A stretch of 47,834 nucleotides of DNA, from IMG/VR virus record IMGVR_UViG_3300048930_000091, positions 1 through 47,834 of that record, one strand, 5' to 3'. Positions 7,263-45,621 of this stretch are shown in pieces. This DNA is from a virus. How positions within the stretch are numbered: position 1 is the first letter of the stretch; every line of letters starts with the position of its first letter. The translations under genes were made by a program, and so were the position numbers. The notes under the pieces were generated by a model that saw only the letters and a program-made list of their open reading frames with translations, had not been told where the DNA came from and made no database searches.

Positions 7263-8639
7263 ATGCCAGACATCAACATTCTACACATTGACCATACTTA
7301 TATCAAGATTACTAGCGACGATCCGGGTAAACTGATGCAGCTTAGTGAGACTTTAACTTTTAGTATACCAAATGCTAAGTTCCATCCTAAAGTCAGAGCT
7401 AGAATATGGGACGGTAAAATTCGTCTTTTTAATTTGAAAACTAGGTCTGTGTATAAGGGCTTACTTAAAAACATTCTAAGATTTTCTGCCGACAATAATT
7501 ATAGTGTTGGCATTGATGAAGCCTTGTCTAAAGATATACTACCAGAAACTTCTATCGAAGATACTACCAAATACTTCAATTCTTTGAATCCGCAGTACAA
7601 AGGCGAACATCTTAAGCCATATGACCATCAGATTGTTGCTCTAAATCATGCAATGAACAATAAGAGAGCATTGATGCTTTCACCAACAGCAAGTGGTAAG
7701 AGTCTTGTTATATACGGCTTAATGAGATGGTTGCAGAAAGAAAACTGCAAGAAAATAATGTTGGTTGTGCCAAGTGTCAGTCTTGTTTATCAGATGGAAA
7801 ATGATCTAAGTGAATACTCAAAGAATGATAGTTCGTGGGACGCTGAAGAAAATATACACAAGATATTTGAGGGCCAGTGTAAAACTACAGATAAGCCAAT
7901 TGTAATTAATACGTGGCAAAGTGTGTATAACCAGCCCAAAGAATTCTTTGAAGAATATGACGCCGTTATTGTAGACGAAGCCCACCAGTTAAAAGCTGAA
8001 TCTATCAAGGGAATATTAGAAAAGTGCTCGAATTCCGCGTTTAGATATGGTTTAACAGGTACATTAGATGGTATCAAGACTAATAAGATGATCATTGAGG
8101 GTCTAACTGGACCTGTATTCAAAGTAACTTCTACCAGAGAGTTGATGGACAAGAAGTTAATATCGGATTTTAGTATCCGATGCATAGTCTTGGATTATTC
8201 AAAAGAATCTCGCAAATTCTGTAAAGACTTTAAGTACCATGAAGAATTGGAATACCTTGTCGGCCATAAGAAGCGCAATTCGTTTATAGCAGGTCTTGCG
8301 ATGTGTTTAAAGGGTAACACATTAATATTATATCAGTATGTTGAAAAGCACGGTGAAATACTATTTGAACTGATATCTAAGAAATGCGAAGGCACTAATC
8401 GTAAGGTATTCTTCATCAGCGGTGATGTAGAAGCTGAGGTTAGAGAAGAGATTCGCAATATTGTAGAAGCAGAAAAATTAAGAACTATAATATACTTAAA
8501 ATTTGGTGATAAAGAGATATCTTGCGATTCTGATGAAAATGTAATTTTATCTAATAGCAAAATTAAAAAAGCAATTGATATAACTATTAATGACGATGTT
8601 GATGATAATTGGATCAAAAATAAACTAAATAAACTCTAG
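7263..8639 (+). CDS. uvsW: UvsW-like helicase, N-terminal part, interrupted
   Basis: Residues 1-405 match a T4 UvsW-type superfamily 2 helicase: an N-terminal DNA-binding domain (KVRARIWDGKIRLFN), SPTASGKS near 140-147 (Walker A), DEAH near 238-241, and GLTGTLDG. UvsW unwinds and regresses branched recombination and replication DNA. After codon 8475-8477 the family sequence stops and 53 unrelated residues follow to a TAG. Their KFGDKEISCDSDENVILSN... pattern resembles the block B region of inteins. The helicase resumes at about 9421, beyond a GIY-YIG gene. The N-part alone lacks motifs V and VI and should not be an active helicase. Confidence 0.88.
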   Translation: MPDINILHIDHTYIKITSDDPGKLMQLSETLTFSIPNAKFHPKVRARIWDGKIRLFNLKTRSVYKGLLKNILRFSADNNYSVGIDEALSKDILPETSIEDTTKYFNSLNPQYKGEHLKPYDHQIVALNHAMNNKRALMLSPTASGKSLVIYGLMRWLQKENCKKIMLVVPSVSLVYQMENDLSEYSKNDSSWDAEENIHKIFEGQCKTTDKPIVINTWQSVYNQPKEFFEEYDAVIVDEAHQLKAESIKGILEKCSNSAFRYGLTGTLDGIKTNKMIIEGLTGPVFKVTSTRELMDKKLISDFSIRCIVLDYSKESRKFCKDFKYHEELEYLVGHKKRNSFIAGLAMCLKGNTLILYQYVEKHGEILFELISKKCEGTNRKVFFISGDVEAEVREEIRNIVEAEKLRTIIYLKFGDKEISCDSDENVILSNSKIKKAIDITINDDVDDNWIKNKLNKL

Positions 8640-8655
8640 AAAAGAGGGTCTATTT

Positions 8656-9381
8656 ATGTATTATTTGGTGTATAAAATTACAAATTTGATTAATGGTAAA
8701 TACTATATCGGAAAACATTGTACAGATAAATTAGATGATTCTTACATGGGTTCTGGCAAATTAATAAAAGACGCTATTAAAAAATATGGAAAAATAAACT
8801 TTAAAAAAGAAATATTGGTTAGTTGTGACAATGAATTTGATATGAATGTTATAGAGTCGTGCTTAATAAATCCATTCCCAAATAATAAACTGTCATATAA
8901 CTTAACAGAAGGTGGTAATGGTAGTTTTAAGTACATAAATCAAAATGGATTATCTCGCACAGAAGAATGCAAAATTAAGGTAAAGACTAGCCTCAAAAAT
9001 TATTGGAATAAGCCTGAATCTAGAGAAAAGAAAAGTAAAGAGAAAAAAGACTATTTTGCAATGTACGGATCTGCACATATTTCTGTTGGGCTCAAAAAAA
9101 GATATGAAAATAAAGATTTCCGTGAAAAATTTAAAACAAAAATGTCAGAAGTTAATTCTCGTTTAGATAAAAGACTTGATGCCGGTGCAAAAATTAAAGA
9201 TAAGTGGAAAAATGATCCCGTCTTTAGAGATAAAATGCGAAATCGCAAAAAAAGAGGACCCGATAACGGCAAAATAAAAGAATACTGGAAAAATCCAGAT
9301 TTTAGGAATAAAATGTTGTCTGCAAGAAAAGAAAAAAGAGAAAAGAAATTGCAAGCAAAAAATAATTCTAAAATAGACTAA
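8656..9381 (+). CDS. GIY-YIG homing endonuclease inserted in uvsW
   Basis: The 241-residue product begins MYYLVYKITNLINGKYYIGKH, the GIY-YIG motif (VYK...YYIGKH) with the following DSYMGSGKLIKDAIKKYG, and keeps the catalytic-type Glu in ESCLI. The C-terminal half is highly basic with repeats around YWKNPDFRNKM / KNDPVFRDKM, which look like DNA-contacting modules. Homing enzymes of this class cut an allele lacking the insertion and are copied in by repair. It lies inside uvsW, with its own GAGG ribosome binding site eight bases from the ATG. The repeats and position suggest a selfish element rather than a phage function. Confidence 0.87.
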   Translation: MYYLVYKITNLINGKYYIGKHCTDKLDDSYMGSGKLIKDAIKKYGKINFKKEILVSCDNEFDMNVIESCLINPFPNNKLSYNLTEGGNGSFKYINQNGLSRTEECKIKVKTSLKNYWNKPESREKKSKEKKDYFAMYGSAHISVGLKKRYENKDFREKFKTKMSEVNSRLDKRLDAGAKIKDKWKNDPVFRDKMRNRKKRGPDNGKIKEYWKNPDFRNKMLSARKEKREKKLQAKNNSKID

Positions 9382-9393
9382 GAAAGATTTTAT

Positions 9394-9733
9394 ATGAAAC
9401 CAACGTCAATTAGAAAGAAAGAAGGTGTAGGGTGCATTATTATTGCATCTTACGGTACGTTTTTCAACAGGAATTTCCTTAAGGCGATTGCATGGTATTA
9501 TATTTGCGTCGCCAAGCAAGAGCCGAGTACGAGTATTGCAAAGTATTGGTCGTCAATTAAGACTAGCAAAAAATAAAGGATCTGCTGTTTTATATGACAT
9601 ATCTGATAATTTAAAGCATAAGAGCAAAGCAAATTATACGTTAAACCATTTTCTTGAGCGGCTCAAGATATACGATCAAGAGAAGTTTGATTACACTATA
9701 AATAACATAGATCTTGAACCAGGAGAAAAGTAA
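9394..9733 (+). CDS. uvsW: UvsW-like helicase, C-terminal part, frameshifted
   Basis: The ATG at 9394 opens with EGVGCIIIASYGTF, which is helicase motif V and continues the UvsW N-part. After TTTTT at 9460-9464 the frame is lost, and the family sequence continues one frame over as STGISLRRLHGIIFASPSKS and VLQSIGRQLR (motif VI), ending at 9733. Removing one T restores a single frame. As written, the first frame stops after 60 residues and the rest could only start at an internal ATG (9443). Possible causes are a sequencing error in the T run, a +1 ribosomal slip on UUU, or a real lesion. Confidence 0.8.
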
Positions 9734-10180: not shown

Positions 10181-10196
10181 AAGTGCAGTGCATATT

Positions 10197-10877
10197 ATGA
10201 AAAAGACTAAAAAAGTTCCTGTTAATGTTGACGAAGATGTAGTAGAGCCAATTATAGAAGAAATTGTCAAAAAAGATAAAAAGCTAAAGCATTATATCGA
10301 TAACGATAAGCTGCTTATTGAAATGACCAAGTATGCTAAGGAAATGAAAGAATATAAGCAAAATCGTGAAGCTAATCCTGAGATGAAAAGTCCAAGAATG
10401 ACAGAGTATGTCGGATCTTGTATTCTCAAGATTGCTGAAAGATTGAGTTCAAGACCAAACTTCTGTGGCTATACATACAAAGATGAAATGGTTAGTGATG
10501 GTGTAGAAAACGCCATGATGTATAGCCATAACTTTAATCCCGAAATTAGTAAGAACGCATTTGCATATCTTACTCAAATCATCTATTTTGCATTTCTTCG
10601 CCGAATAAGCAAAGAAAAAGAACAGTTTTACGCTAAGATGAAGTTGGTTAGAGATAGTGATATTGATGGTAAATTTAGAAATAGACTTCTTAAGAATTAC
10701 GCAGATAAGGGTGAGTATATCGACCCAGAAGAAGTTTATTTAAAGCATTTTAGTCTAAAAGAACTAGATGTTAAGAACATTGAAGATAAGATTACCTCGA
10801 AGTCTAAAATCATTGAGAAAAAGCAAAAGAATCAAAAGAAGATTAAGCCTAAGATTTTAGACGAATTCATGGAATAA
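10197..10877 (+). CDS. 55: late-transcription sigma factor (gp55-like)
   Basis: The 226-residue product has a stretch matching T4 gp55. It reads IAERLSSRPNFCGYTYKDEMVSDGVENAMMYSHNFNPEISKNAFAYL...FLRRISKEKEQF, compared with [35 protein letters not shown]...AYITQACFNAF in T4. This is the sigma region 2 core that reads the late -10-like box. With host RNA polymerase it should recognise TATAAATA-type promoters, which are present in the window. The N-terminal 60 residues are an acidic/basic extension absent from T4. I prefer the ATG at 10197 over the in-frame GTG at 10188, although neither has a clear Shine-Dalgarno. Next to gp47, as in T4-like phages. Confidence 0.85.
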   Translation: MKKTKKVPVNVDEDVVEPIIEEIVKKDKKLKHYIDNDKLLIEMTKYAKEMKEYKQNREANPEMKSPRMTEYVGSCILKIAERLSSRPNFCGYTYKDEMVSDGVENAMMYSHNFNPEISKNAFAYLTQIIYFAFLRRISKEKEQFYAKMKLVRDSDIDGKFRNRLLKNYADKGEYIDPEEVYLKHFSLKELDVKNIEDKITSKSKIIEKKQKNQKKIKPKILDEFME

Positions 10878-14197: not shown

Positions 14198-15760
14198 ATG
14201 AAGCCCTACTATGAGAAAAACAGAATACTAGATGACTATACAGTTAATGTAACATTTCACGAAATTCTTAATATGACGCCTGCCGAGTTTAATTTGTGGG
14301 TGCTTCATATGAGATCATCTTTGTTGTCTTCCTGGGATCAGACTGGAAGCCCAGCTAGATTGGGCAAGAACCTAGAGGGTATTATTGAAGATTTTAACGA
14401 CACCAATGCTGCCGATACGTCTGAGTTTCTGAAAATAGATGAATTAACAAACGAAAAGTGTGTTGTGCAAAATACTCAATATTGTGGGTCTACAGTAGAT
14501 CAATTCTTTACTAACATGATGAAAGTGCCGATGTGTTATGGTAAAGATAAAGTGGGTTATAGTGTTTATGACTTACTAAGTAAAGACGAGCATAAGAATA
14601 GAGTTTTAAAGAGATCTCATAGGCACTTTAGAAAAGATAGCTTTTATCATTATAGTATGTGTGGTAAAATTAATGATAAGAAATCTTGCATGATATCTGT
14701 AAAGACAGCCGATGAATGGCTTAATGCATATTTCGACGGCAAGTTGCATGAAGATTGTGAATTTTGGCTGCATGAAGTCGAAGTAAAGACTGGTAAGAGT
14801 ACTGGCTATAAGCAGTTTGTACAAGATGACTTTTTGAAGTTAAGTTCTACAGAAGTATTGGCTTTATTGCCAAAGTTGAAGGCTAACCATATAGCTAACA
14901 TAGATGTTAATAATCTGAAAGATGATTGTTATTATATGATTAGAATATACGACAAAACATCTAGAATGTTTCCTAAAGCATTTACAGCATTTAGAATTGG
15001 GTATCTTAGTGTACCAGTTAATTTCCCACCATTGACTGCAAAGTTTCTTTACGAAAAGTATACTTCTAATGTACCACAAGATAAAACTGCAATAGTGTAT
15101 GATCCTTCTAGCGGCTGGGGTGGTCGAATCTTGGGCGCAATGAGCGCAAATAGACCGATACATTATATTGGCACAGACCCTAATCCAGACAATGTGTTTG
15201 TTGACGGTAAAACTAAGTATGAGCATATTGCAGAATTCTATAACAACAACGTAAATTCTAGTTTGTTCTTCGACGGCAATACATATGATATATTCACTGA
15301 CGGCAGCGAAGAAATATACAAGAATCCTAGATTTCATCAATATAAGGGCAAAATAGATCTTATCTTTACTTCACCACCATATTTCAATCGTGAATTGTAT
15401 AGTATGGACCCAAATCAAAGTGCTGTTAAATATGGCTCAAGTTACGAGTCATGGCGCGATGGTTTCTTGAAACCAACACTAAATACTTGTTATGAGTATC
15501 TGAAACCTGGTGGATATTTGTTGTGGAATATAGCAGATGTTCTTACAGAAGGTGAGTATTTGCCACTAGAACAAGATAGTATAGATTGCCTATTATCTTT
15601 GGGTATGAAGCAAGAAATAGTATTGAAGATGAAATTAATGGGAATGCCTGGAGCCCAAAGATTGGATGAAAACGGTATACCTAAGTGTAAGAATTATTGC
15701 AAAATTAGTGGAGTTTATCATAAATACGAGCCAATATATGTATTTCGAAAACCAATTTAA
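14198..15760 (+). CDS. DNA methyltransferase (TSPPY type)
   Basis: The 520-residue product carries DPSSGWGGR near 302-310 (SAM-binding loop), GTDPNP, and FTSPPYF near 389-395, the catalytic motif of amino-methyltransferases acting on adenine N6 or cytosine N4. The N-terminal 300 residues are unlike common methyltransferases and may hold target recognition. A phage enzyme of this kind may protect against restriction. Its last 38 residues (from MPGAQRL) are found again, 32 of 38 identical, at 16761-16877, beyond the minus-strand GIY-YIG gene. So this 3' end appears to have been replaced. The stop overlaps the convergent endonuclease stop by four bases. Confidence 0.85.
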   Translation: MKPYYEKNRILDDYTVNVTFHEILNMTPAEFNLWVLHMRSSLLSSWDQTGSPARLGKNLEGIIEDFNDTNAADTSEFLKIDELTNEKCVVQNTQYCGSTVDQFFTNMMKVPMCYGKDKVGYSVYDLLSKDEHKNRVLKRSHRHFRKDSFYHYSMCGKINDKKSCMISVKTADEWLNAYFDGKLHEDCEFWLHEVEVKTGKSTGYKQFVQDDFLKLSSTEVLALLPKLKANHIANIDVNNLKDDCYYMIRIYDKTSRMFPKAFTAFRIGYLSVPVNFPPLTAKFLYEKYTSNVPQDKTAIVYDPSSGWGGRILGAMSANRPIHYIGTDPNPDNVFVDGKTKYEHIAEFYNNNVNSSLFFDGNTYDIFTDGSEEIYKNPRFHQYKGKIDLIFTSPPYFNRELYSMDPNQSAVKYGSSYESWRDGFLKPTLNTCYEYLKPGGYLLWNIADVLTEGEYLPLEQDSIDCLLSLGMKQEIVLKMKLMGMPGAQRLDENGIPKCKNYCKISGVYHKYEPIYVFRKPI

Positions 15761-16599
15761 ACCGGCAATTTCCACCCTTGATGTGTTTTGTATTTGCCAT
15801 TAAGCACATATCGTATACATGTCCTATTAAGACCATGAATTCTACAAAATTCGGATAATCCTGTATACTCTATAATTTCATTATTTGGAGACAACAATTT
15901 AAAGGTGGATTTCATTCCATTAGAGTCGGTATCTTTAATTTCTCTGTTTATTATAAATTCTGGTCCGGGCAATGTCCATCCTTTGTGACTTTTTTGTTTT
16001 CCTCGAAGTACTTCGCGCAGCGCACCTCTGGATAAATTATGAAGTTTGCAAAATTGTGTTAGATTTGCGGCATGTATTATTTCTTTTGATGGTGACATTA
16101 TAGTGAAAGAAGTTTTATTTGGTACTACTTTTCTTTTGTTTTCTCTTTCTTCTTCCGATACTCGTCTACCTCTTAATTTGTTTGCCGCCGCATTTCTTAT
16201 TTCTATTCCTCTTTTGGTTTTATTGAATTCTTGCCCCTTCAAAGAAAGTAATTTTTTCGTTTCTTCTGTTGTTACACTGTTAACTCGTCCTTCGCCACCA
16301 AATGTCATATTATATCCTTTACCATTTAGATAGAAGGAATCATATTTTATTATGTATTTATTTTCTAAAATGAACATATTTTCTATGGAATCTGTTTTTT
16401 CTATGATTTCAATATTGAAATTATCTTTGCCATATTTCGATATAGCTATATGTAGAATCGATTTTCTTCCCGACCAATTAGATCCGCTTATATGTTCTAT
16501 AAATCTGCTGCGAATGTCGGGTCTCGAAGTAACACCTATATAAATTTTACCATTTATCAAGTTGGTAATTTTATAAATAATATATTCTTTGCTTTCCAT
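15757..16599 (-). CDS. GIY-YIG homing endonuclease with repeated NUMOD/IENR-type DNA-binding modules
   Basis: The 280-residue product starts MESKEYIIYKITNLINGKIYIGVTS (GIY-YIG), keeps the Glu in ILENKYI, and has two similar modules near residues 155-215 and 225-280. The modules are FTIMSPSKEII...LTQFCKLHNLSRGALREVLRGK...HKGW and FKLLSPNNEII...LSEFCRIHGLNRTCIRYVLNGK...HQGW. These are the helix-turn-helix modules typical of homing enzymes. It runs against its neighbours and lies between two copies of the methyltransferase 3' end. AAGGA lies nine bases before its ATG, and a late-type promoter box is at 16690-16697. Confidence 0.9.
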   Translation of the reverse strand: MESKEYIIYKITNLINGKIYIGVTSRPDIRSRFIEHISGSNWSGRKSILHIAISKYGKDNFNIEIIEKTDSIENMFILENKYIIKYDSFYLNGKGYNMTFGGEGRVNSVTTEETKKLLSLKGQEFNKTKRGIEIRNAAANKLRGRRVSEEERENKRKVVPNKTSFTIMSPSKEIIHAANLTQFCKLHNLSRGALREVLRGKQKSHKGWTLPGPEFIINREIKDTDSNGMKSTFKLLSPNNEIIEYTGLSEFCRIHGLNRTCIRYVLNGKYKTHQGWKLPV

Positions 16600-33048: not shown

Positions 33049-33980
33049 AATGTCTTAAAGTTATATCTATGACAATGATATCTTTATTGATGGCTTCTTG
33101 TGAAGCCAACTCCAAAACTAAGCCAATTGTTTCTGATAATCAGACAATTTCTGATGTTAGATCGTCCATGGTCGAGTCTACTAATAAGATTGGTAATAAT
33201 ACCAAGATTATTGACAATGCTGTAGTTAATATAGACCATCATACTGATGTAGCTACAAGTTCTCACCCAGATAATGCAGATTTAATTAGTTATAGCGATT
33301 TGGTTGCCGGTGAGGCATCTAAGATCAAAGAAGCAAATAACTCTACCGCTGATGTTATACCAAATTTGATATCTGATAGCAAAAACCTACAAAAAGTTGA
33401 TCAGAAGATAAAAGATCTTACAAATAAAATAGTTGATCTGGAAAATGAAAAGGGTAAGCTTCAAAATGAAGCAGTTAAGAATATATACTCTTATTTGGGT
33501 ATAATCTTTGCTATCGGCACGCTTACTGTTATCGCCGGCGCAGCTTTGGCATTCTTTATTAATCCAAGAAGCGGTTTATTTGTGTGTGGCTTGGGATTAA
33601 TCGGGCTTGCAGTTGCAGCCGGTGCCACGTACTATCTCAAAGTAGTTGCTCTTGTTGGTATAATTGGAGTGGGAGCTGTTATTGTTGGCATAATTGGTTA
33701 TATTGTTTATGTAGCCATCCGTCAGAAGAAAGAAGTTAAGGTTCTAACTACTGCAACTGAGGAAACAGTCAATCTAGTTGAGAAAATCAAAGATCAAATG
33801 CCAGTAGAAAAGAAACTGGAGATCTTTGGTACAAATATGGTTCCTGGCAAGGCTCAAGAAATAATCAAGTCAGAATCTTCTAGAAAGATCATTGATAAGA
33901 TCCGCAAGAGTACAAAAAACAAGGCAGTTAGTCATAAACCAACTGCCGAGATCGAGGATATTAAAGTTAAGAAAGAATAA
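33045..33980 (+). CDS. lipoprotein-like multi-pass membrane protein (311 aa)
   Basis: The N-terminus (MKCLKVISMTMISLLMASC) looks like a lipoprotein signal peptide with Cys19 as the lipid site; the -3 residue is Met, so the lipobox is imperfect. Residues 40-145 are polar and coiled-coil-like (KDLTNKIVDLENEKGKL). Residues about 148-227 hold three hydrophobic segments (YLGIIFAIGTLTVIAGAALAF and two more). The C-terminus is basic. It may face the periplasm and act in lysis or exclusion, but no family fits. It converges on the minus-strand gene with 14 bases overlap. Confidence 0.65.
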   Translation: MKCLKVISMTMISLLMASCEANSKTKPIVSDNQTISDVRSSMVESTNKIGNNTKIIDNAVVNIDHHTDVATSSHPDNADLISYSDLVAGEASKIKEANNSTADVIPNLISDSKNLQKVDQKIKDLTNKIVDLENEKGKLQNEAVKNIYSYLGIIFAIGTLTVIAGAALAFFINPRSGLFVCGLGLIGLAVAAGATYYLKVVALVGIIGVGAVIVGIIGYIVYVAIRQKKEVKVLTTATEETVNLVEKIKDQMPVEKKLEIFGTNMVPGKAQEIIKSESSRKIIDKIRKSTKNKAVSHKPTAEIEDIKVKKE

Positions 33981-34332
33981 GCTTCGGTGTATTCTTTACG
34001 TTATTAACTTCTTCTGGTGTGGCTGTAGCAATGTTATTGACATCTGCAAGATATGTTGTCTTTGTTTTCTCGTTCATCTTCATGTAAGATACGACGGCAC
34101 TCAAAGAACATCTAAAGCATGATTTATAACTATCATGATACAGATATGGTAATGTAAATATTACTAATCTACCAGTACTTGGATCTGCAACCAACTGTCG
34201 TGGATCCTTATACTCTAGGTACTTAATCCCCAGAGTTTCATCGACTACTACGCCAACGTGAGTAACCATAAATTCTTCGCCATTGAGCAGCTTTAAGACA
34301 CGCGCATCGCCAGGAACACATTTGTCGTCCAT
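33967..34332 (-). CDS. Sm-like hypothetical protein (121 aa)
   Basis: The product has VLKLLNGEEFMVTHVGVVVDETLGIKYLEYKDPRQLV, the strand order of an Sm-like barrel, followed by VIFTLPYLYHD. A loosely similar protein lies at 9734. AAAGGG lies before its ATG, and the same AGAAAGGGTT string occurs twice in a row in that leader. It is the last gene of the minus-strand block. Function unknown; binding to RNA is possible but not shown. Confidence 0.6.
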   Translation of the reverse strand: MDDKCVPGDARVLKLLNGEEFMVTHVGVVVDETLGIKYLEYKDPRQLVADPSTGRLVIFTLPYLYHDSYKSCFRCSLSAVVSYMKMNEKTKTTYLADVNNIATATPEEVNNVKNTPKLILS

Positions 34333-34361: not shown

Positions 34362-34997
34362 TCATTCAAAACATTTTGACATTATTTTGTAATATTTCTT
34401 GGGCATTTTTTCTGCGTAATTCGATTGTATGCGAGTAGGCATACAACTGAGTATATTTCTAGAATAGTAGTCTTTGCACTTCCATGTTTTATTTTCTTCT
34501 ACTAAATGATGATAAAATATGTAAGCGTTACTTACTTTGGCCGACTCTATTACGTCAATTGGCAAATCATAGAACTTAATCAGACCAATGCTCATTTTGC
34601 AACATTCTGTTTCCATTTGTCTTATTATATGCATCTGATCTTCTATTAACTTTTGACTATTAGTTTTTAAATCTTTTTCAGTGTGTATTATGCTTTTTAG
34701 TGGTTTCCAATATGTTTTATAAATTGGGGTTTCATAATACGATTGAAGAAAGTGGCAATATTCATGCACATAGGTATCTAGCCAAGATTTGGTAGTCCTT
34801 AAAAATTTCTCTGGTCTACTGATTCTTAGCTCTCGATCTTCGTAAATATATAAGCCAAAACGATCGTCATAGTTAAGTAGTTTCAAGTGTGCTTTGTTTT
34901 GACGTAAAAATCCAACACTATCTTTAAGAAATTTGTCTGTATTTTTGTTCGTGGAATATAACATTCCTCTATCAGAGTTAATCTTAAGCGACGCCAA
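34362..34997 (-). CDS. zinc metallopeptidase-like protein
   Basis: The 211-residue product has TYVHEYCHFLQSY, an HEXXH zinc site (H78, E79, H82), and a downstream METECCKM whose Glu could be the third ligand. Such domains are seen in small phage proteins of unknown role. I start at TTG 34997, since AAGGAG lies seven bases upstream. That site is in the 3' arm of a hairpin (35001-35044) with a late promoter box in its loop. It lies downstream of a DNA methyltransferase gene on the same strand. Confidence 0.65.
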   Translation of the reverse strand: MASLKINSDRGMLYSTNKNTDKFLKDSVGFLRQNKAHLKLLNYDDRFGLYIYEDRELRISRPEKFLRTTKSWLDTYVHEYCHFLQSYYETPIYKTYWKPLKSIIHTEKDLKTNSQKLIEDQMHIIRQMETECCKMSIGLIKFYDLPIDVIESAKVSNAYIFYHHLVEENKTWKCKDYYSRNILSCMPTRIQSNYAEKMPKKYYKIMSKCFE

Positions 34998-35000
34998 GAT

Positions 35001-35044
35001 AGTGCTCCTTGTTACTTGTAGTATTTATAACAACAAGGATCACT
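35001..35044 (-). promoter_or_regulatory. late promoter inside a hairpin that hides the ribosome binding site
   Basis: On the minus strand AGTGATCCTTGTT (35044-35032) can pair with AACAAGGAGCACT (35013-35001): 12 of 13 bp around an 18-base loop. The loop encodes a perfect late box TATAAATA (35029-35022). The 3' arm holds AAGGAG, the ribosome binding site of the metallopeptidase. RNA read through from upstream would form the hairpin; RNA started at the late box would lack the 5' arm and leave the site open. This matches the known logic of T4 gene e. Confidence 0.65.
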
Positions 35045-35049
35045 ATATT

Positions 35050-35879
35050 TTATTCTAATAAATCTGATATTGTGTTTGTTGTAAGTCTAGGAATAACACA
35101 TTCGTCGATGTATTTCTTACTATATTCTATGCCTATATACTTTCTATTATTGTGTTTGGCGATTACTGGAGTTGTACCAGATCCACACATTGGATCAAGC
35201 ACGGTGTCGCCTTGATCAGAAAATAACAATATTAGATCTTGTGCCAGTTTGTCTGGAAACGTAGCAGGATGATTATTCTTGATTTCATTGTTTTCGTTAT
35301 TAGAAGTATAGCCGTTGTAGTTCCATATAGTACCACAGCACTTTGTATCGTCGCATACAAAGTAAGTTTTTTTGTCGAAAGATCCGTCTTTTTTCTCTTC
35401 TGTACACTCATCTTTTTGCCTGGGTGTAGGGTGGGAATTTTCATATGTTCTTTATTAAAATATCTGGGTGTATCACCCTTAACAAAGATGTGTATATATT
35501 CGTGATCTACTCTAAATCTTCTGTTCCAGTATTTACCGGGTATGCCATTTCTTTGATAGATGGTTGTCTCAAACAACGACCAGCCGCATTCTCTTATTAG
35601 GTCTGCGGCTAGCATCATGCTGGTACCAGTCTTTACTTTCTTAGTTTGATCTTGAATTACCACACACAATACACCACCATCACAAGTTGCTTGGTATAAC
35701 AACTTACCATAATTTATAATATCCATTTTAGGATATTCGTTATAGGTGCGCATACTGTCATATGGTGGGCTTGTGACAGTTAGGTGTACAGATCCAGGAT
35801 CAATATCTTTTAGCGCAGTATAACAGTCATCATTTATTATGATGCCATCATTATCCGAGTATGTAATATTTTTAATCAT
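35050..35879 (-). CDS. DNA methyltransferase, frameshifted
   Basis: The N-terminal part has VTSPPYDSMR (catalytic motif, residues 36-40) and continues normally to LHPGKK. At an A run on the minus strand (35413-35417) the frame slips. The next frame then gives TEEKKDGSFDKKTYFV, HPATFPDKLAQDLI, VLDPMCGSGTT (SAM loop) and YIGIEYSKKYIDECV, ending at 35050. Adding one A gives a single 276-residue enzyme of the adenine-N6/cytosine-N4 class with motif order IV to I. As written, the unshifted frame runs to 35232 with a nonsense tail. The site reads C-AAA-AAG, which could allow -1 slipping. Confidence 0.8.
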
Positions 35880-37161
35880 TAGATGTATAGTCTTTCAGTT
35901 TGTGTATATGGCATCCATCAGGTATCGAAAATTTCAGACCACCTTCAGTCAAGAACCAGTGCCATACATCTGGATTTTCTACTGACTTGAAGGGTGATGG
36001 TGCGCAATCGCCGCCGTCTGTGATATGAAATATTGCGTCTGGATATTTCTTAAGCGTACCACTGGCAATCTCTTTCTGAATGTATCTTTCCATGCACGCA
36101 AAGTCATCACTACCACCACCGCCATGCCATGAAACCATGTCTACGTCAATTTTGATTTCTTTGACTGATGTAGTACGAGTGAATGCCCTTACGTCGAATC
36201 TCTTTGGATCAAGACTCTTGCAAGCATCCAGAAATTCTTTGCGCAAGTGCCAACAACTACCAGAGGCGTCTAGGAAGAAGTATACAGTTATTCTACTTCT
36301 AGAAATTGCAATATCATCTCTATCGCTTGGCAACATCATACCATTAGTTAGATTTGCATGTCTGCGGCCTCTGTGTGACCATTGCTCACATTCAATATCT
36401 TCATATTCTACCTTAGTGAATTTCTTAATTAGATTTGCCCATTTTCTGTTAATTTTGGGTTTAGATTTAATCTTATCTTCGTTTTTACCTTCGATTAGCG
36501 GATCACCGGGGCGGCCTCGATTGTAAGCATTGGCTCTTTGCTTGATCTTATCTGAATCGTCGCTAGAAACATTTTGGCTCATTTCATCGTGTAGTGCCTC
36601 TGAAAGTTCGTTACCAAATTGATCTAGGAACTTATTCATTGCATTAGACATTTCACACATTTTATCAAAATTCTTAGATCTATTTTCTTTTTTCTTTAGT
36701 AAATCGTAGTAATATTCAAATGTACCTTCTGGGTCTATCTTATCTGGTTCTTTGAAGATAGTATCTATCCAGCAAAATGGATTTAATTTATCTGTGCGTT
36801 CGAATTTGAAGTAATTTACTAGTGTGTGATTAACTATAAGGTCTAACGCAACATTTATTAAAGACCTATCTTCTGGATCTAATTTTTCATCTGTTAGCGA
36901 TCGCATACCGTGGCCCATGATGACGTGTAGGCATTCATGTGCCACAACGAATCCTTTGTTGTTGTTTGTGTCAAGATAGTCCCAAAAGTCAGGATTAAAA
37001 TGGAAATCCATGTATGTACCGACAACATCAAATGATACACACGCCGTATCTATACTTTGATCTAGTACTGGCCGCCCCATTTTCATGGCAGCGTAAAATA
37101 TTAGAGGTCTAGATTCCATTGAATATATGACCTCGTCGAATTCATTATAAAAGTTATTCAT
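35872..37161 (-). CDS. metallopeptidase-like plus VWA-domain protein (module 1)
   Basis: The 429-residue product pairs VVAHECLHVIMGHG (HEXXH, H75-H79) with a C-terminal VWA-like domain whose YFFLDASGSCW (near 293-303) is a MIDAS metal site. This is the layout of the DUF2201-type VWA proteins that work with MoxR ATPases. The middle is charged and may be flexible. I start at the ATG at 37161, which overlaps the stop of the upstream MoxR gene (ATGA). The two probably act as a chaperone or remodelling pair; the target is unknown. Confidence 0.8.
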   Translation of the reverse strand: MNNFYNEFDEVIYSMESRPLIFYAAMKMGRPVLDQSIDTACVSFDVVGTYMDFHFNPDFWDYLDTNNNKGFVVAHECLHVIMGHGMRSLTDEKLDPEDRSLINVALDLIVNHTLVNYFKFERTDKLNPFCWIDTIFKEPDKIDPEGTFEYYYDLLKKKENRSKNFDKMCEMSNAMNKFLDQFGNELSEALHDEMSQNVSSDDSDKIKQRANAYNRGRPGDPLIEGKNEDKIKSKPKINRKWANLIKKFTKVEYEDIECEQWSHRGRRHANLTNGMMLPSDRDDIAISRSRITVYFFLDASGSCWHLRKEFLDACKSLDPKRFDVRAFTRTTSVKEIKIDVDMVSWHGGGGSDDFACMERYIQKEIASGTLKKYPDAIFHITDGGDCAPSPFKSVENPDVWHWFLTEGGLKFSIPDGCHIHKLKDYTSND

Positions 37162-38708
37162 ATTATATTCTTGTACTTTATTGGAATAAACTTGGCATTT
37201 GCAGCTGTCGAAGATAACCAACCCATTTCTGCCAGAATGAATTGATAGTTATCGACCATGTCTTTGATATTAAACAACCCAGTCTTGTAAATATACGCAA
37301 ATGTTTCTAAGATTTTATCTCTGTTATCATTTAGGGTTTTGCGCTGAGAACTAGCAACAAAGTAGTTTAAGAACCCCATTATTTTATCGCATTGTGATTT
37401 GTCGGGTACTGTGATGGGTATAACCGAAGTGCCTCTTGACATGGTTTGACTAGTTGCAGCTAGTGAATATAGGATAGTAGATTTGATTGGCGATATTTTA
37501 TACCCAGCCTTTTTTTCAAACATTGATATACTAGTAGAAAATTCTGTGCTTATAGAACCAATTTTTGGTATAGTATTTGGCATTGTAAAGCCCATCACTT
37601 CTTCGTACATGGATTCTACGACAAGTGGTGGTTTCTTGGAGATTGCAATTGTGGCGGTCTTTCTTGTTTTTACAGTCTTAGACTTGATGATCTTATCTGC
37701 AACTTTAGCCAGTTTAGATGACTTCGGCGATTTAGACTTGATATCTTTTAGTAAAGTCTCATGGTCGTCATAGTTTGCAGTAAAGTATGTTTCCAGTTGG
37801 CTTGGATATGTACTAAACAGCGAAGATAGATTCTCTTTATTCAAAGAAGATATGAGGGTTTCGTTGCCGACGATTTCTTTTTCTAGAGCCTTGAAGTTAT
37901 TCATATCATTTATGAATGTAACAATATCCTTGTCGGGCGTTTTGCTTTCTGGATCCAGTAATTTCTTCAATCGTCTAGATGGCGATCCGTTGTTAACAGT
38001 TTCAATTAGTGCATCTACGTTGCAGCATGGCGGTAGAACATGGCGAACATTACCACCCAATTGCATGAATTCTACTGCGCCGTCTAATTTACGGGGGCTA
38101 ACATAGTCCTTTACCTTGTCAGGCAAAGCATCCCACCATGCGCATACGTCATAGCCAATATCTTCGCCGTACTTATTGACAAAGTATTTCTTGCTTGGCT
38201 TGTATGGAATTTCTACTTGAACCAAGAAACGATCTCGCTGAGCAGGATCCAAATCTTCAACGTCGTATGGATCGTTATCAGTTTTTGGATTGATAGCACC
38301 CCAAATCATTTTGAGATTGGGGAATTTCTTGCCGTTAATGCTCTTAAACTGAATCAGTTCCATGATAGCATTACGTACTTTCTTGTGCGAACGGTTAAGT
38401 TCGTCAAAGAAAATTGCTTCTACTTCGTCGTCACGGAATTCCTTTGGTTTAATAAGCTCAAGATATGGCTTACCATTTTCGTCCATTACTTCCTTTGGAA
38501 TACCGATAAAGTCTACCCACGGGTCCATTGTAGAAGCACTAAAGTAACGACTTTTGAGTCCGTTTCTCTTAAAAGCTTCTTCGATCATGGTAGTTTTACC
38601 AACACCGTGCTTACCAATGAAGAGCACGTTTTGCCGGTGCTTTATCCAGAAGTCCAGAGTCTTTTCGTCTGGCATATACGATATAGCTGTTTTAATCAAA
38701 TCACTCAT
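37158..38708 (-). CDS. MoxR-type AAA+ ATPase (module 1)
   Basis: The 516-residue product has IGKHGVGKTT at 31-40 (Walker A), AIFFDELNR at 98-106 (Walker B), MIWGAINPKTDND (sensor 1), and DPAQRDRF (arginine finger region), as in MoxR/CobS ATPases. Residues beyond about 280 are an extra region with a Lys/Ser stretch. Hexamers of this type remodel proteins with a VWA partner, encoded next. A TTGACT-N17-TACAAT promoter lies about 40 bases upstream of the start. Confidence 0.87.
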   Translation of the reverse strand: MSDLIKTAISYMPDEKTLDFWIKHRQNVLFIGKHGVGKTTMIEEAFKRNGLKSRYFSASTMDPWVDFIGIPKEVMDENGKPYLELIKPKEFRDDEVEAIFFDELNRSHKKVRNAIMELIQFKSINGKKFPNLKMIWGAINPKTDNDPYDVEDLDPAQRDRFLVQVEIPYKPSKKYFVNKYGEDIGYDVCAWWDALPDKVKDYVSPRKLDGAVEFMQLGGNVRHVLPPCCNVDALIETVNNGSPSRRLKKLLDPESKTPDKDIVTFINDMNNFKALEKEIVGNETLISSLNKENLSSLFSTYPSQLETYFTANYDDHETLLKDIKSKSPKSSKLAKVADKIIKSKTVKTRKTATIAISKKPPLVVESMYEEVMGFTMPNTIPKIGSISTEFSTSISMFEKKAGYKISPIKSTILYSLAATSQTMSRGTSVIPITVPDKSQCDKIMGFLNYFVASSQRKTLNDNRDKILETFAYIYKTGLFNIKDMVDNYQFILAEMGWLSSTAANAKFIPIKYKNII

Positions 38709-39100: not shown

Positions 39101-42100
39101 TTATACTCCAAATCCGTTGTTCTTTCGTATCTTTCTTGCATAGTCAGTATTCAAAACGCTATACAACGACCTTTCGTTTGATGAGACTGGCAAAACATTG
39201 ATGTAGTTATTTATTGTGTAAGTATCTGAACCGTATTGATTGTATGCCTCTAGTGTTATAGTATATGTTCCGGGTGTATCATACGATATGGCCGGATTCT
39301 CTATTTTAGAAGAGACATCTGCCGTGTTGCCGTACAGATACCAATTATAACCAGATATGCCACCTTCGCTTAATGTTTGATTGATATAATTTACAAATAG
39401 TCTGGGCTGCCCAGATGTTACACTAGCAGAAAATAGTGATACAGGAGATCTGCCATGAGAATCTGGCACACCGTATACACTATAGGCTGCCTCGTAGTCG
39501 GCAGTATCCACTCTACTGAATCGGTCATTGTTGTCGAGCATTTTAATTGCTCCAGAAACACCTGTTTCGCCTACTCTGTAAATTAGTTGTGGCATTTTGA
39601 ATACAATAAATCCTTCTGTATTGTGATCAAACAACATTGTTCTAATATAGTTAAATGTATCATATTCAGTTGACACCGGCAATACAGATGTACCAGTAGT
39701 AAACAAGTTCGTTGTTGATACTGGTCCATCGGATTCATTGATAGTTAACCAAGGAAATAATGGCTTACCAGCCGATCTTGTTTCGTCGAAGTAATTCATT
39801 AAATTGTTATAATTTTTAGCAGTTTCGATGCTATTTTTAAATCTATAATTAACAAAGTCTTGGACATTTAGATAGCTTTCTTTTGGGTTAGAAGTTAGCC
39901 CATTATATGCAGTTATCGACATATCACCGCTTAGGCCGCGATCACCAGACAAACCTGTAATAACCCGAGTTAAAGATATACTATCTAAGAATCCTCCATA
40001 GCTACCAAGGTTGTTATTTGCAAACGATCCGGTTAGATTTATTCCATTATATCTATCAGAAGCGATCGGGCTAGTTCCTCTAAACGCACTGTTAATATTT
40101 ACAGTGTATTTTGTTGCTATTCCCATTGGCAGATTTGGAGAATGAAAATCACAAAATGATATACCTGTAATATCCGGTGATGCAAATCCTGTACCAGTAT
40201 GGCCAGCAAGAATGTCTAAACAGTAGCCAACTGCGAATGGTTTTTCACCCGACGCCAAGAACCGTTTGCTGCCCATACTAGAAGAGTAATCTGTACCCAC
40301 TTTTATATTAGGGAAATGCGTCTTTGCTGGAGCAAATACTTGATCCATTAACCAAATATGGTGAGCTTCGTGTAAACTAAGTATGAAATTGAAGAAATAT
40401 GGATTCTTATCAAATATACTGCTTGTGCCATGTGGAGCATAATAGTATTTTACGTTAGTTTGGGTATATTCTGCTGATCCAGTATATGGGCTAGGAGAAT
40501 ATAATGTATATTCTGGTGTATATTGATATGGGCTATAGTTGCAGCCAGCGGTGCTATCTTTATTGCCTTCTACATATGGTCCAGTTTGACCCCATAGTTC
40601 GAATAGTGTGTACTTGTCAAAGAATTTGTATGTAGTTGCTCTGGGATCATTAATGTGCTGATTCCATTGACCAAGGTCGGCAGTTTTGCCAAAGTAATTA
40701 ATTAGTGTATTATATGGATATCTATTATAGTCACTAGATGATATACCAGAAGATTTTGTCCAATAGTACGGGCCATTACCAAAGTTTGCAACGCTAACAT
40801 TTGAATATGGCTGATAGTTGGCATATGATTGTGGTTTGTCTGCCCACTGAGAAATGAAACTTTGATCTCTTGCTTTTGTGTAATATTTTGGCGATGAGTT
40901 TAGACTTAGTATTGGTATTCTATTTGTGCCTGGTATATTAGTTGCGATATATGTAGGTCCAGAAAGAGTCCATTGATTTATGAATTGTGTCTGTGATTGA
41001 TTTGCTGCATTTCTGCAAATCTGCATCTTTGCTTCGTATCCGTCGCCATAGTACGTGTATCCTTCAGAAAAGTCTGATGGGAAGCCATCAAGATTGTTTG
41101 CTGTATAGCCATCATTAACTTTATAATAAGATCCTTCATTAGGATCGTATACAATATTATTTGAACCATATTCTATTTCTTCAATTTCCGGATCAATCCA
41201 CGGCGACACGTCATGGTGAAATATCATCTGTCTTAATGAGCCTTGAGCAACATAGTTTGTTGCTGAGGCATTCGTAAAGCCATATACATATGTGTCGTAT
41301 GGCGCAGCTGTATCGAATGGTGTTGGTTGACCCTGAGATCCAGCTGGGTTATATCCAGTTATATTCAATTCTAAAATTGTATCATATGAAGAATATTCTC
41401 TTATCGACGGTAACAATACTGTTGTCGTTTCGTCGTCACTAAAGATGTATTTTGGATATGTTATTCCCGAAGTATATTGAGATCGTAAATCTATTGAAGA
41501 CTTCATAGAAGAGAATATTGTGTTTATTGCGTATCTCGCGCCACTCAATCCTTGGGTGGTATACATCGAAGTTCTGCTTATTGCCAGAATATCTTTTTCG
41601 GCTATACCATATGTTTGCCCGTGCATTGAAAGAGCATCTGATGGGTGGTAGTATACCGACAGCCAAGGCGCATCCGGGCCACTAGATGAATCACTTGAAA
41701 GTGGTGGGAAATCTCTGTTACTGCCGAATATCCCATCGTGTTCTGCCTGTGAAGTAAATATGTTTTGAAATAGAACCGCCGGGGCATCGTGCGAAAGGCC
41801 ACGGGCATTATAATACCTTGTATGCATATCTATCATGGCTGCATACGCTTTGCCTAGTCTATCTTCTCTGTTCGGGCCAGACACAGAATTTTGCCAGTCA
41901 GATAAAGTAGATTCGTTGAACGCACCTGTTAGACCGGTTAGAATATAATTTCCTGCCACTCTATTGAAATCGTTTAACCATGCACCATGATCTACTCTGA
42001 TTCTTACAATTGGATTTACATATTTGTAAAATTCGTCCTCGAATACTGGTGCCGATAAACCAGTGAAATAACTGTTTGTTTTTGCTTTTTCTAGTGGATA

Positions 42101-42247
42101 ATTTACAAGACCCCTGCCGTCATTAAATTGATATCCTTCGAGATCTACTGCTTGTTTTGTTTTCTCGAAAACGCTTTCCCAAGTATACAATTTTAGATGC
42201 TTGTGGCCAGTAGCTGATCTATTATAGACATTTGCACCAATTATCAT
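39101..42247 (-). CDS. large virion protein with PKD-like domain (1048 aa)
   Basis: The 1048-residue product is rich in Tyr, Ser, Gly, Asn and Thr, as in phage fibre or adhesin proteins. Near residues 960-1020 the pattern ISYDTPGTYTITLEAYNQYGSDTYT is that of a PKD immunoglobulin-like fold. Near residue 625 LHEAHHIW has the HEXXH form. Leu-Ser-Gly or Thr-Gly-Leu turns recur in the middle. CATAAATA (late box) and GGAG precede the ATG. It probably sits on the tail or capsid surface, but I cannot name the structure. Confidence 0.6.
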   Translation of the reverse strand: MIIGANVYNRSATGHKHLKLYTWESVFEKTKQAVDLEGYQFNDGRGLVNYPLEKAKTNSYFTGLSAPVFEDEFYKYVNPIVRIRVDHGAWLNDFNRVAGNYILTGLTGAFNESTLSDWQNSVSGPNREDRLGKAYAAMIDMHTRYYNARGLSHDAPAVLFQNIFTSQAEHDGIFGSNRDFPPLSSDSSSGPDAPWLSVYYHPSDALSMHGQTYGIAEKDILAISRTSMYTTQGLSGARYAINTIFSSMKSSIDLRSQYTSGITYPKYIFSDDETTTVLLPSIREYSSYDTILELNITGYNPAGSQGQPTPFDTAAPYDTYVYGFTNASATNYVAQGSLRQMIFHHDVSPWIDPEIEEIEYGSNNIVYDPNEGSYYKVNDGYTANNLDGFPSDFSEGYTYYGDGYEAKMQICRNAANQSQTQFINQWTLSGPTYIATNIPGTNRIPILSLNSSPKYYTKARDQSFISQWADKPQSYANYQPYSNVSVANFGNGPYYWTKSSGISSSDYNRYPYNTLINYFGKTADLGQWNQHINDPRATTYKFFDKYTLFELWGQTGPYVEGNKDSTAGCNYSPYQYTPEYTLYSPSPYTGSAEYTQTNVKYYYAPHGTSSIFDKNPYFFNFILSLHEAHHIWLMDQVFAPAKTHFPNIKVGTDYSSSMGSKRFLASGEKPFAVGYCLDILAGHTGTGFASPDITGISFCDFHSPNLPMGIATKYTVNINSAFRGTSPIASDRYNGINLTGSFANNNLGSYGGFLDSISLTRVITGLSGDRGLSGDMSITAYNGLTSNPKESYLNVQDFVNYRFKNSIETAKNYNNLMNYFDETRSAGKPLFPWLTINESDGPVSTTNLFTTGTSVLPVSTEYDTFNYIRTMLFDHNTEGFIVFKMPQLIYRVGETGVSGAIKMLDNNDRFSRVDTADYEAAYSVYGVPDSHGRSPVSLFSASVTSGQPRLFVNYINQTLSEGGISGYNWYLYGNTADVSSKIENPAISYDTPGTYTITLEAYNQYGSDTYTINNYINVLPVSSNERSLYSVLNTDYARKIRKNNGFGV

Positions 42248-43020: not shown

Positions 43021-45621
43021 ATGAAAAATACTCTCAATCAAGATAGGCGTATGTCTTCTGGTGACATCGAAATTGAAAGTGGACTCGCCAGGCTATTGGC
43101 CGGCGAGAACCTTACAATTCAACACGATGTAAAGGCACAATCCGCTTCGTTCAATGTTGATACCAGAACATTGACAATGCCGGCATTTGCTCAAATTGAC
43201 GCCGACTTTTATGAAATGAACATATGCCATGAAGTTGGTCATGCTATGTTCACTCCTAAGAGTGACGTAATTGGTCAGACTATTGGCAGGATTGATGAAG
43301 ATCCAACAGTTGCAGATAAGGTTAAGTATGTTGTTAATACCGTAGAGGACGCCAGAGTTAATCGTCTGGTTAAGCGCAAGTACCCCGGTGTTGCCATCAC
43401 TTATCGTAATGCCGGTGATTACTTGATGAGCACTGGTATGTTTGGCGATCTCGCCGAAGTCAAAGTCGATGATTATGGCTTTCTTGATCGTATTAACCTG
43501 ATGTTTAGTATTGGTGTTGGTAATCCCGATGTTCATGTTGAATTTAAGGATGCAGAAATGCGCCTTGTTCAGCGCATGATGAATACAGAAAACTGGCAAG
43601 ATGTAGAGGCCCTGTCTAAGGATCTGTATCGGTATTGCAAGGATAATGACGAAGAGATCCCAGAAGAACAGGGCCAACAGGGTCGGGGCCAACAGGGTCA
43701 GGGCCAACGGGGTCAGGGCCAACAGGGTCAGGGCCAACAGGGTCAGGGCCAACAGGGTCAGGGCCAACAGGGTCAGGGCCAACGGGGTCAGGGCCAACAG
43801 GGTCAGGGCCAACAGGGTCAGGGCCAACAGGGTCAGGGCCAACAGGGTCAGGGCCAACAGGGTCAGGGCCAACGGGGTCAGGGCCAACAGGGTCAGGGCC
43901 AACAGGGTCAGGGCCAACAGGGTCAGGGCCAACAGGGTCAGGGCCAACAGGGTCAGGGCCAACAGGGTCAGGGCCAACAGGGTCAGGGCCAACAGGGTCA
44001 GGGCCAACAGGGTCAGGGCCCGGGCGAGAGCAATTCAAATTCTGGCAAACCAAGTATAAGGGGTGGGGGATCGAGTGGTCCTGCAACTGGCGGGGGTGTT
44101 GGAAGTGCTGGTCTTGGATCTGGCACTAAAGTCAGAGTTTCCAACTTCAAGAATGGTGTTCAGTCCAAGATTGATGAACACCTTGTAAAGCATAAGACTA
44201 CCAATTCTGACTTTGTGTATATCAACATCCCAGAAGTTGATAGCTCGAAGTATATTATTCCATCCAATAAATTGTGGGAAGCAATCGATAAGCAGATAGC
44301 TGCCAAATATCAAGTGTTGCCAACAGACGTTTCACCCAGAGAAATCTATAACAGATATGCCGCAAAGTCGCGTAAGATCATCAGTGGTCTTGTTACTGAA
44401 TTTAATGTTCGTAAATCTGCCGACGAGTCTCAGCGTACTTCTACCGCAGAAACCGGCCGAATCAATCCCAATAAACTTCATCATTATAAGTATGACGACA
44501 ATATCTTCCTGAGAGGTCAAGTTGTACGCGAAGGAAAGAATCACGGATTTGTGATGATTATTGATGGTAGTGGTTCTATGGATTCTATCATTGGATCTGT
44601 TGTAGAGAAAACCGTAGAACTTGCAACCTTCTGCCGTCAAGTCAATGTTCCCTTTGAAGTCATGATCTTCAATGATAATTCATATGCCTTTAACCTACTT
44701 ACAGCTACTCTTAAAGACAAAAATGTTGATATCAATAGTTCAAATGGCGGGTATCTTGATGGTAAGCCAAAGGATGGCGATGCTAATTTGAGTAATTGCA
44801 TTATGTTAAATGTTTTGAGTAGTAAGATGAGCGCGGCTCAATTTACTGCTGCTTGTGGTAAACTTCTTTGTTGGTCTAAGGCTGCAAGAAATTATGTTAC
44901 TGGCAACGAAACATTTTGTAGTTATGATGCCAGTTACATGAAGTTGAATGGCACACCACTAAACGAATCTATTCTTGTTGCCACTGACTATCTTCCTAAG
45001 TTCCAAAAAGATCACAAGGTTCAAATTGTAAACCTTATTGTGCTTACTGATGGTGAAGGTAACGAGAACATGACCAGTTACCGATATGATTCTAAGAAGG
45101 GTAGTTATGATTATTATTATCGCTCTAGTGGTAACTTGATCGCAAGAGATAATAAGTGTAAGATTTCTGCCAATTTGGCCACCAGATATACCAATATCAA
45201 TTGCTCTGGATATGCTTCTAGAATGACCGCTTTCTTGATCGATCGGTTGAAGTATAGAACTGGTGCAAATGCTATTGGATACTATGTTGGCGATCGTAGT
45301 TTTATGAAGCACCGTTGTGATGACACCACCAAACTTCAAAAGTTGTATGATGATTATGATAAGAATGGATCTGCCATGATCTTAGAAAATGGCTATGATG
45401 CGTATTTTATCATGTCCTATAGTTCTTTGAATAAATCAATTGTTGACGAGACCGGCAATCTGCAAAGTAATAAGAACCTGTCAGCCGAAGAAAAGTTGCG
45501 TCTTATCTCCAGTGAGGCTGCTGGTAATCGTGGATCTAGAGTGTTCCTCACACAATTCACCAATATTGTGAGTGGTAAAGCAAAGTTAGATAAACCAAAG
45601 ACTAAGAAAGTAACGGAATAA
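43021..45621 (+). CDS. CobT-like metallopeptidase-VWA protein with Gly-Gln repeat (module 2)
   Basis: The 866-residue product has three parts. The N-terminal domain has NICHEVGHAMF (HEXXH, H70-H74) and NTVEDARVNRLVKRKYPG. A low-complexity stretch of 23 GQQGQ units follows (residues 218-332). The C-terminal VWA domain has VMIIDGSGSMDS (MIDAS, about 511-522) and VLTDGEG. This build is that of the phage CobT-like proteins, partners of CobS-like MoxR ATPases. True cobaltochelatase activity is unlikely, since no CobN is seen. It has no ribosome binding site and a promoter directly at its start. Confidence 0.83.
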   Translation: MKNTLNQDRRMSSGDIEIESGLARLLAGENLTIQHDVKAQSASFNVDTRTLTMPAFAQIDADFYEMNICHEVGHAMFTPKSDVIGQTIGRIDEDPTVADKVKYVVNTVEDARVNRLVKRKYPGVAITYRNAGDYLMSTGMFGDLAEVKVDDYGFLDRINLMFSIGVGNPDVHVEFKDAEMRLVQRMMNTENWQDVEALSKDLYRYCKDNDEEIPEEQGQQGRGQQGQGQRGQGQQGQGQQGQGQQGQGQQGQGQRGQGQQGQGQQGQGQQGQGQQGQGQQGQGQRGQGQQGQGQQGQGQQGQGQQGQGQQGQGQQGQGQQGQGQQGQGQQGQGPGESNSNSGKPSIRGGGSSGPATGGGVGSAGLGSGTKVRVSNFKNGVQSKIDEHLVKHKTTNSDFVYINIPEVDSSKYIIPSNKLWEAIDKQIAAKYQVLPTDVSPREIYNRYAAKSRKIISGLVTEFNVRKSADESQRTSTAETGRINPNKLHHYKYDDNIFLRGQVVREGKNHGFVMIIDGSGSMDSIIGSVVEKTVELATFCRQVNVPFEVMIFNDNSYAFNLLTATLKDKNVDINSSNGGYLDGKPKDGDANLSNCIMLNVLSSKMSAAQFTAACGKLLCWSKAARNYVTGNETFCSYDASYMKLNGTPLNESILVATDYLPKFQKDHKVQIVNLIVLTDGEGNENMTSYRYDSKKGSYDYYYRSSGNLIARDNKCKISANLATRYTNINCSGYASRMTAFLIDRLKYRTGANAIGYYVGDRSFMKHRCDDTTKLQKLYDDYDKNGSAMILENGYDAYFIMSYSSLNKSIVDETGNLQSNKNLSAEEKLRLISSEAAGNRGSRVFLTQFTNIVSGKAKLDKPKTKKVTE
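43672..44016 (+). repeat. 23 tandem copies of a 15-bp unit (Gly-Gln repeat)
   Basis: The unit GGCCAACAGGGTCAG repeats 23 times without length change and encodes GQQGQ. Variants are GQQGR in unit 1 and GQRGQ in units 3, 8 and 14. The unit has no stop in any of the six frames, so all frames read open here; only the coding one fits the flanking domains. It lies between the metallopeptidase-like and VWA domains and is probably a flexible linker. Confidence 0.95.

Follow-up and report, generated by a model that had tools for sequence, protein, structure and literature searches.

A probable late promoter inside a predicted ribosome-binding-site hairpin upstream of a putative metallopeptidase gene in an uncultured T4-like virus

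Does the hairpin that precedes the gene of a HEXXH protein in an uncultured virus act as a timing switch of the T4 gene e type, keeping the gene silent on long RNA and freeing it on RNA begun at a late promoter in the hairpin loop? We consider this to be the case with a probability of roughly two in three, and we infer the read-through RNA, the late start, the repression and the timing from the sequence. The gene (34362 to 34997, minus strand; 211 amino acids) lies in an IMG/VR virus record; the 47,834 bases of this record are the whole stretch of DNA analysed and are called the window below. Based on its matches to a gp55-type late sigma factor (10188 to 10877, plus strand; phrog_234, E 3e-48), a gp41-type helicase (48% to named phages) and UvsX (best identity 55% among viral contigs), the source is a divergent, uncultured T4-like phage. 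In T4-like phages gp55 reads TATAAATA promoters.

The hairpin spans positions 35046 to 34999 of the minus strand and has 15 pairs (6 + 9) around one A.G mismatch. Its 5' arm (35046 to 35031), both as read from the letters and as folded, consists of AUAGUG, an unpaired A at 35040 and UCCUUGUUG. In the fold it is followed by a loop of 16 nt, UUAUAAAUACUACAAG (35030 to 35015), and by a 3' arm (35014 to 34999) made up of UAACAAGGA, an unpaired G at 35005 and CACUAU. The Shine-Dalgarno sequence AAGGAG (35010 to 35005), located 7 nt 5' of the start codon, is part of the 3' arm, with its first five bases in the stem and its last base being the mismatched G. A single C separates the end of this arm (34999) from the UUG start codon (34997 to 34995), which was assigned from the reading frame and in part inferred; the next in-frame AUG is codon 12 and lacks a suitably spaced Shine-Dalgarno sequence, and the UUG start is confirmed by no relative. 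The original prediction had proposed that the two arms pair and thereby hide AAGGAG, and that a perfect TATAAATA lies in the loop. The pairing was borne out by the fold, with the A.G mismatch as a detail that had been omitted, and the T4-type late promoter box (35029 to 35022, minus strand), 24 nt 5' of the start codon, was indeed a perfect match that fell entirely within the loop. The T4 late box spans positions -13 to -6 relative to the transcript start, and with the same spacing the late transcript would start at 35016, still in the loop and 2 bases 5' of the 3' arm. As the box is in the loop and the T4 start-site rule is followed, the predicted late RNA would lack the 5' arm. One T4 study likewise puts roughly one helical turn between the late box and the start (PMC2988020).

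The leader hairpin folded at -15.6 kcal/mol in a 67-nt segment, and none of 200 dinucleotide shuffles of this segment folded equally well (z -2.9). A longer segment of 97 nt, which takes in more of the coding sequence, did not fold exceptionally well, with a z of only -1.4 and 22 of 200 shuffles as good. A search of Rfam gave no match above the gathering score.

On the minus strand the HEXXH gene comes last in the order AAA ATPase (37158 to 38708), DUF2201/VWA-like protein (35872 to 37221), DNA methyltransferase region (35050 to 35879) and HEXXH protein, in a series of genes on the same strand. The AAA ATPase gene is the first one past a candidate sigma-70 promoter with an extended -10 element (TTGACT-17-TACAAT, TG before; 38774 to 38746, minus strand). 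Since the number of promoter-like matches in the region was close to that expected by chance (44 versus 36 +/- 6.8), this promoter is put forward as a suggestion only for the source of the read-through RNA. No strong terminator was found between it and the HEXXH hairpin, the sole terminator-like site on that strand having 5 pairs and lying within the methyltransferase region. Downstream, a gene for a protein of 121 amino acids (33967 to 34332, minus strand), which is not among the 12 hardest-to-open Shine-Dalgarno sites of the window, is followed by a terminator-like hairpin from the scan with 11 pairs and a U-rich tail (33947 to 33923, minus strand) at the end of the series.

In the proposed switch, RNA begun at an early or middle promoter that lies upstream of the AAA ATPase, VWA and methyltransferase genes would carry both arms, and the stem in this long RNA would lock the Shine-Dalgarno sequence and leave the HEXXH gene untranslated. 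Once gp55 is made, the polymerase would initiate at the TATAAATA within the loop; the late RNA would then begin about 2 nt before the 3' arm, making the stem impossible, and the gene would be translated. The calculated accessibility of AAGGAG is consistent with this. Opening it cost 9.4 kcal/mol in the read-through RNA and 8.0-9.2 kcal/mol when up to 140 nt of extra upstream sequence was included, and only 0.5-0.8 kcal/mol in late RNAs starting 2-9 nt after the box. The late value rose to 2.7 kcal/mol when the 3' context was shortened to the 6 nt that begin with the start codon, probably due to CAAG/CUUG pairing, and opening the late RNA from the Shine-Dalgarno sequence through the start codon cost about 4.1 kcal/mol. 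The late RNA of the HEXXH gene is therefore not fully open.

This arrangement resembles that of known T4 genes. According to two papers, genes controlled in the e-type manner are late genes that are also carried on long early or middle transcripts (PMC3014915, PMC2988022), and such or similar structures are described there for e, soc, 49, I-TevI to III, segB, mobE, 39, 25 and 26 (PMC2988022, PMC3014915). For T4 e on long RNA, the repression is about 100-fold (PMC3014915). When folded in the same way, the T4 gene e leader behaved in a like manner: its Shine-Dalgarno sequence is masked in the long early RNA, TATAAATA is placed such that the late RNA is without the 5' side of the stem, and the upstream gene, nudE in T4, ends close to the hairpin. 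The T4 gene e-like anatomy that had been predicted for the window holds as far as sequence can show, with a masked Shine-Dalgarno sequence, a box in the loop, a predicted start 3' of the 5' arm and a gp55 encoded by the same virus. T4 differs in having two late boxes, the first of which is overlapped by the 5' arm, whereas the HEXXH leader has one box that is wholly in the loop; the start codon is AUG in T4 and UUG in the HEXXH gene, and the products are unrelated. T4 I-TevI and segB and Aeh1 mobE share a late promoter within a hairpin that masks the ribosome binding site, and lie on longer early or middle transcripts (PMC2988022). In the I-TevI and segB leaders folded here, however, the 5' arm includes the late-type box, which is not in the loop, and I-TevI, segB and mobE are homing endonucleases, whereas the HEXXH gene is not.

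The main rival to the switch is translational coupling, which we regard as rather unlikely. According to this explanation, ribosomes that terminate at 35050 unfold the 5' arm, so that the HEXXH gene is made early as well; the stem would mask only RNA with an untranslated methyltransferase frame, and the late promoter would merely add RNA. The geometry is suitable, as the TAA of the methyltransferase frame (35052 to 35050) is followed by 3 nt and then by the 5' arm (35046), which terminating ribosomes could melt. However, the methyltransferase frame is split here, and ribosomes from the N-terminal frame would stop at 35232. In addition, T4 nudE also ends near the e hairpin, and T4 e is nonetheless repressed about 100-fold on long RNA (PMC3014915). 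The frame change lies near 35425-35450, with the N-terminal frame ending at 35232 and the frame that encodes DPMCGSGTT ending at 35050; its cause may be real decay, a frameshift device or a sequencing error.

We also considered that an accidental inverted repeat lies near a real or accidental TATAAATA, and compared the masking of the HEXXH gene with several backgrounds. Masking of equal or greater strength was given by 10 of 4000 random 40-mers of the window that replaced the 5' flank, by 2 of 2000 shuffles of its own 5' flank, and, among the natural flanks of other TATAAATA units, by 4 of 221; this pool includes loci picked for TCCTT. Of 54 hand-listed genes in the window, 32 had a Shine-Dalgarno-like motif and were scored, and 22 had none; the HEXXH gene was a clear outlier at 9.4 kcal/mol, the second-hardest gene reaching 4.5 kcal/mol. 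The leader is AT-rich, the window has no excess of the word TATAAATA (5 observed versus 8.65 expected), and 10 of 4000 random flanks applied to 32 scored genes amount to about one case per 12-13 windows when the box is not required, all of which leave some room for coincidence. Against this stand the two rare features, which are in register with the Shine-Dalgarno sequence, the start codon and a predicted start just beyond the 5' arm, and the position of the HEXXH gene as the only one above 4.6 kcal/mol among the 32 scored. An origin by chance is therefore judged to be improbable.

T- or C-ATAAATA was also found 26-34 nt before the starts of the genes at 30477, 39101 and 9734, and CATAAATA stands 26 nt upstream of the 30477 gene and 34 nt upstream of the 39101 gene. 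At the 39101 gene there was no strong masking (4.0 kcal/mol), and the late-type unit of the 30477 gene was not among the 12 hardest-to-open Shine-Dalgarno sites of the window.

The product of the HEXXH gene had no match in Pfam, PHROGs, NCBIfam or PDB sequences. Searches with the protein gave a single remote relative in viral contigs (L001, 32% over the matched part), a single one in phages (LR756502, a 642-kb record, 26%) and no match in genome contigs. An HExxH motif, a later Gln and ExxC are common to all three proteins, and in their alignment of three sequences, i.e. the HEXXH protein and the two remote relatives, H77, E78, H81, Q84, E128 and C131 are invariant. This conserved pattern fits a putative zinc metallopeptidase. 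The AlphaFold model, made from a two-row alignment, was of low confidence (mean pLDDT 37.8). Both relatives belong to other phages and other gene contexts, and neither L001 nor LR756502 has a box or a hairpin before the start of its HEXXH homologue. A DNA search for relatives of the window in phages found none, and the VWA protein had no match in viral contigs and one match, at 32%, in phages. As the T4 genes controlled in this way include lysozyme and several endonucleases, the analogy suggests that early synthesis of the HEXXH protein may do harm.

To find out whether a design of this kind is under selection, we searched viral contigs for TCCTT-TATAAATA-AAGGA and for two altered versions of this pattern, with at least 120 stretches for each, and the make-up of each sample was compared and not the totals. 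Among the matches listed, 22 of 110 distinct ones to the true pattern had both a start codon and a stem of 10 pairs or more, compared to 4 of 116 when the 5' arm of the pattern was altered (Fisher p 7e-5) and 4 of 115 when its box was altered (Fisher p 8e-5). Fifteen of the 22 genes were scanned against PHROGs. Two had no match, and the others belong to a gp13-type adaptor, tail tube, baseplate hub, terminase, homing endonucleases, a transcription regulator and a family that is listed under tail-fibre assembly.

Conservation was assessed at gp13 (neck) and gp5-like (baseplate hub) genes. These queries were chosen since members already showed the switch and do not sample late genes at random, so the results test conservation and not frequency; within each family, hairpins played no part in the choice of loci. 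Of the 80 gp13 loci, 76 were scored, the other four being without a start region. A masking stem-loop was present in all 25 distinct leaders from 37 loci with 67-100% identity, 24 of them with T-ATAAATA and one with C-ATAAATA, and opening cost 7.7-15.7 kcal/mol in the read-through RNA and 0-1.3 kcal/mol in the late RNA of these leaders (at least 67% identity). At 42-45% identity (39 loci, 19 distinct leaders) no masking above 3.6 kcal/mol was seen. Covariation was counted with a structure-based anchor, namely the base that pairs with the Shine-Dalgarno G in the fold. The core pairs are partly circular under this anchor, and the comparison was therefore limited to pairs beyond the Shine-Dalgarno core. 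Outside the core, 225 of 299 arm positions were matched (0.753), compared to 0.526 for arms swapped between contigs, and G-C, A-U, U-A and C-G were exchanged at several positions with the pairing kept. The gp13 arms thus covary between contigs. A MAFFT alignment of 12 gp13 leaders was dropped, as differing loop lengths caused the arms to be misaligned.

For the gp5-like genes, 71 of 80 loci were analysed, giving 41 distinct leaders. Of the 13 distinct leaders with at least 60% identity, ten were masked (8.8-13.4 kcal/mol in the read-through RNA versus 0-1.4 kcal/mol in the late RNA), and the masking faded below 60% identity. L550, L553 and L557, at 60-63% identity, had no Shine-Dalgarno sequence at the start used. 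The conserved hairpins before virion genes are found at L438-L474 for gp13 and at L519-L542 for the gp5-like genes. Like the HEXXH leader, the hairpins of both families have TATAAATA in or near the loop, a Shine-Dalgarno sequence in the 3' arm and a 5' arm that extends upstream of the box. Their stems, however, are longer and in most cases unbroken, they precede virion genes, and the gp5-like hairpins and about half of those of gp13 have a U-run after the stem, which the HEXXH hairpin lacks. The e-type design is strongly supported by these gp13 and gp5-like genes of T4-like contigs; this support lies at those genes and not at the HEXXH gene itself.

The U-runs bear on a last explanation, to which we give a low probability: that the HEXXH hairpin is mainly a terminator or an RNA-processing or stability stem with a late promoter placed inside, the masking being a by-product, as might be proposed from the gp5-like leaders of this design in viral contigs, nine of ten of which have at least 5 T in the 8 positions after the stem; a terminator role is nevertheless unlikely at the HEXXH hairpin, because its stem is followed by CUUGGCG and no U-run, it is absent from the list of the terminator scan (which covered loops of 3-8 only), and at gp13 the masking stem is kept without TTTT after it in 13 of 25 leaders. 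In the other 12 gp13 leaders TTTT does follow the stem, and the gp5-like hairpins and about half of the gp13 hairpins may be a merged terminator, promoter and mask of the ribosome binding site.

Returning to the timing switch, we determined how often late promoters in general carry it. We found 233 late-box units and scored 224, nine having a Shine-Dalgarno sequence too near the assumed start, and set the cut for masking at 7 kcal/mol. A comparison of duplex energies between 5' and 3' segments was too blunt, as it did not require pairing of the Shine-Dalgarno sequence, and was replaced by the opening cost. For T4, where the count covered 65500-67500 and 70001-120000, 4 of 12 units were masked versus 19 of 180 swapped flanks. 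The corresponding values were 1 of 14 versus 5 of 208 for Melnitz, 0 of 21 versus 5 of 312 for the UvsX loci, 0 of 10 versus 4 of 150 for the ctlB loci, and 2 of 59 versus 24 of 871 for the ctlA loci. In Melnitz, a cultured T4-like phage, the gp5-like leader had opening costs of 13.8 versus 0.1 kcal/mol. Late-box units at large thus show little or no excess of masking over swapped flanks, indicating that the switch is selective and not a property of every late promoter.

With somewhat less than even odds in its favour, we tentatively propose that hairpins that mask the ribosome binding site and hold a late promoter could form a general timing layer in environmental T4-like phages. They would be placed ahead of virion genes (gp13 neck, gp5-like hub, tail tube, terminase) as well as of late genes located on early operons, would be maintained by covariation and, in certain lineages, would have merged with a terminator. 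If this is true, the merged element of about 50 bp would end the upstream RNA, start the late RNA and mask the start codon region in read-through RNA. The survey of other contigs also raises the testable questions of what virion genes, gp13 among them, need this switch for and whether it works by masking, by termination or by both.

The HEXXH gene had been predicted to be a new case of a known design. It does add an uncharacterised putative metallopeptidase of an uncultured T4-like virus to the e-type genes, and the gene itself appears new in that the papers covered name other genes; the design was already known, and it is not limited to a few cases. In the literature covered, in which most subscription papers are not included, we recognised no account of such a switch for gp13, gp5 or a metallopeptidase.

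Some other features of the window were observed. A perfect 16-bp inverted repeat (GTGTCGGATCCTCGTA / TACGAGGATCCGACAC; 42329 to 42282, minus strand) directly precedes the CATAAATA late-type box of the PKD-domain gene at 39101-42247. A GIY-YIG endonuclease gene (15757-16599, minus strand) with an I-HmuI-like NUMOD match is oriented opposite to its neighbours and has TATAAATA about 90 nt 5' of its start, where no strong masking hairpin is present. At 7263-9733 (plus strand) the frame of a helicase, which we take to be UvsW, appears to be broken by an ORF of 241 amino acids (8656-9381) with a weak SegE GIY-YIG match, and the C-terminal part of the helicase seems to restart at 9443. Additionally, a protein of 866 amino acids (43021-45621, plus strand) has a long GQGQQ-type repeat in its middle.
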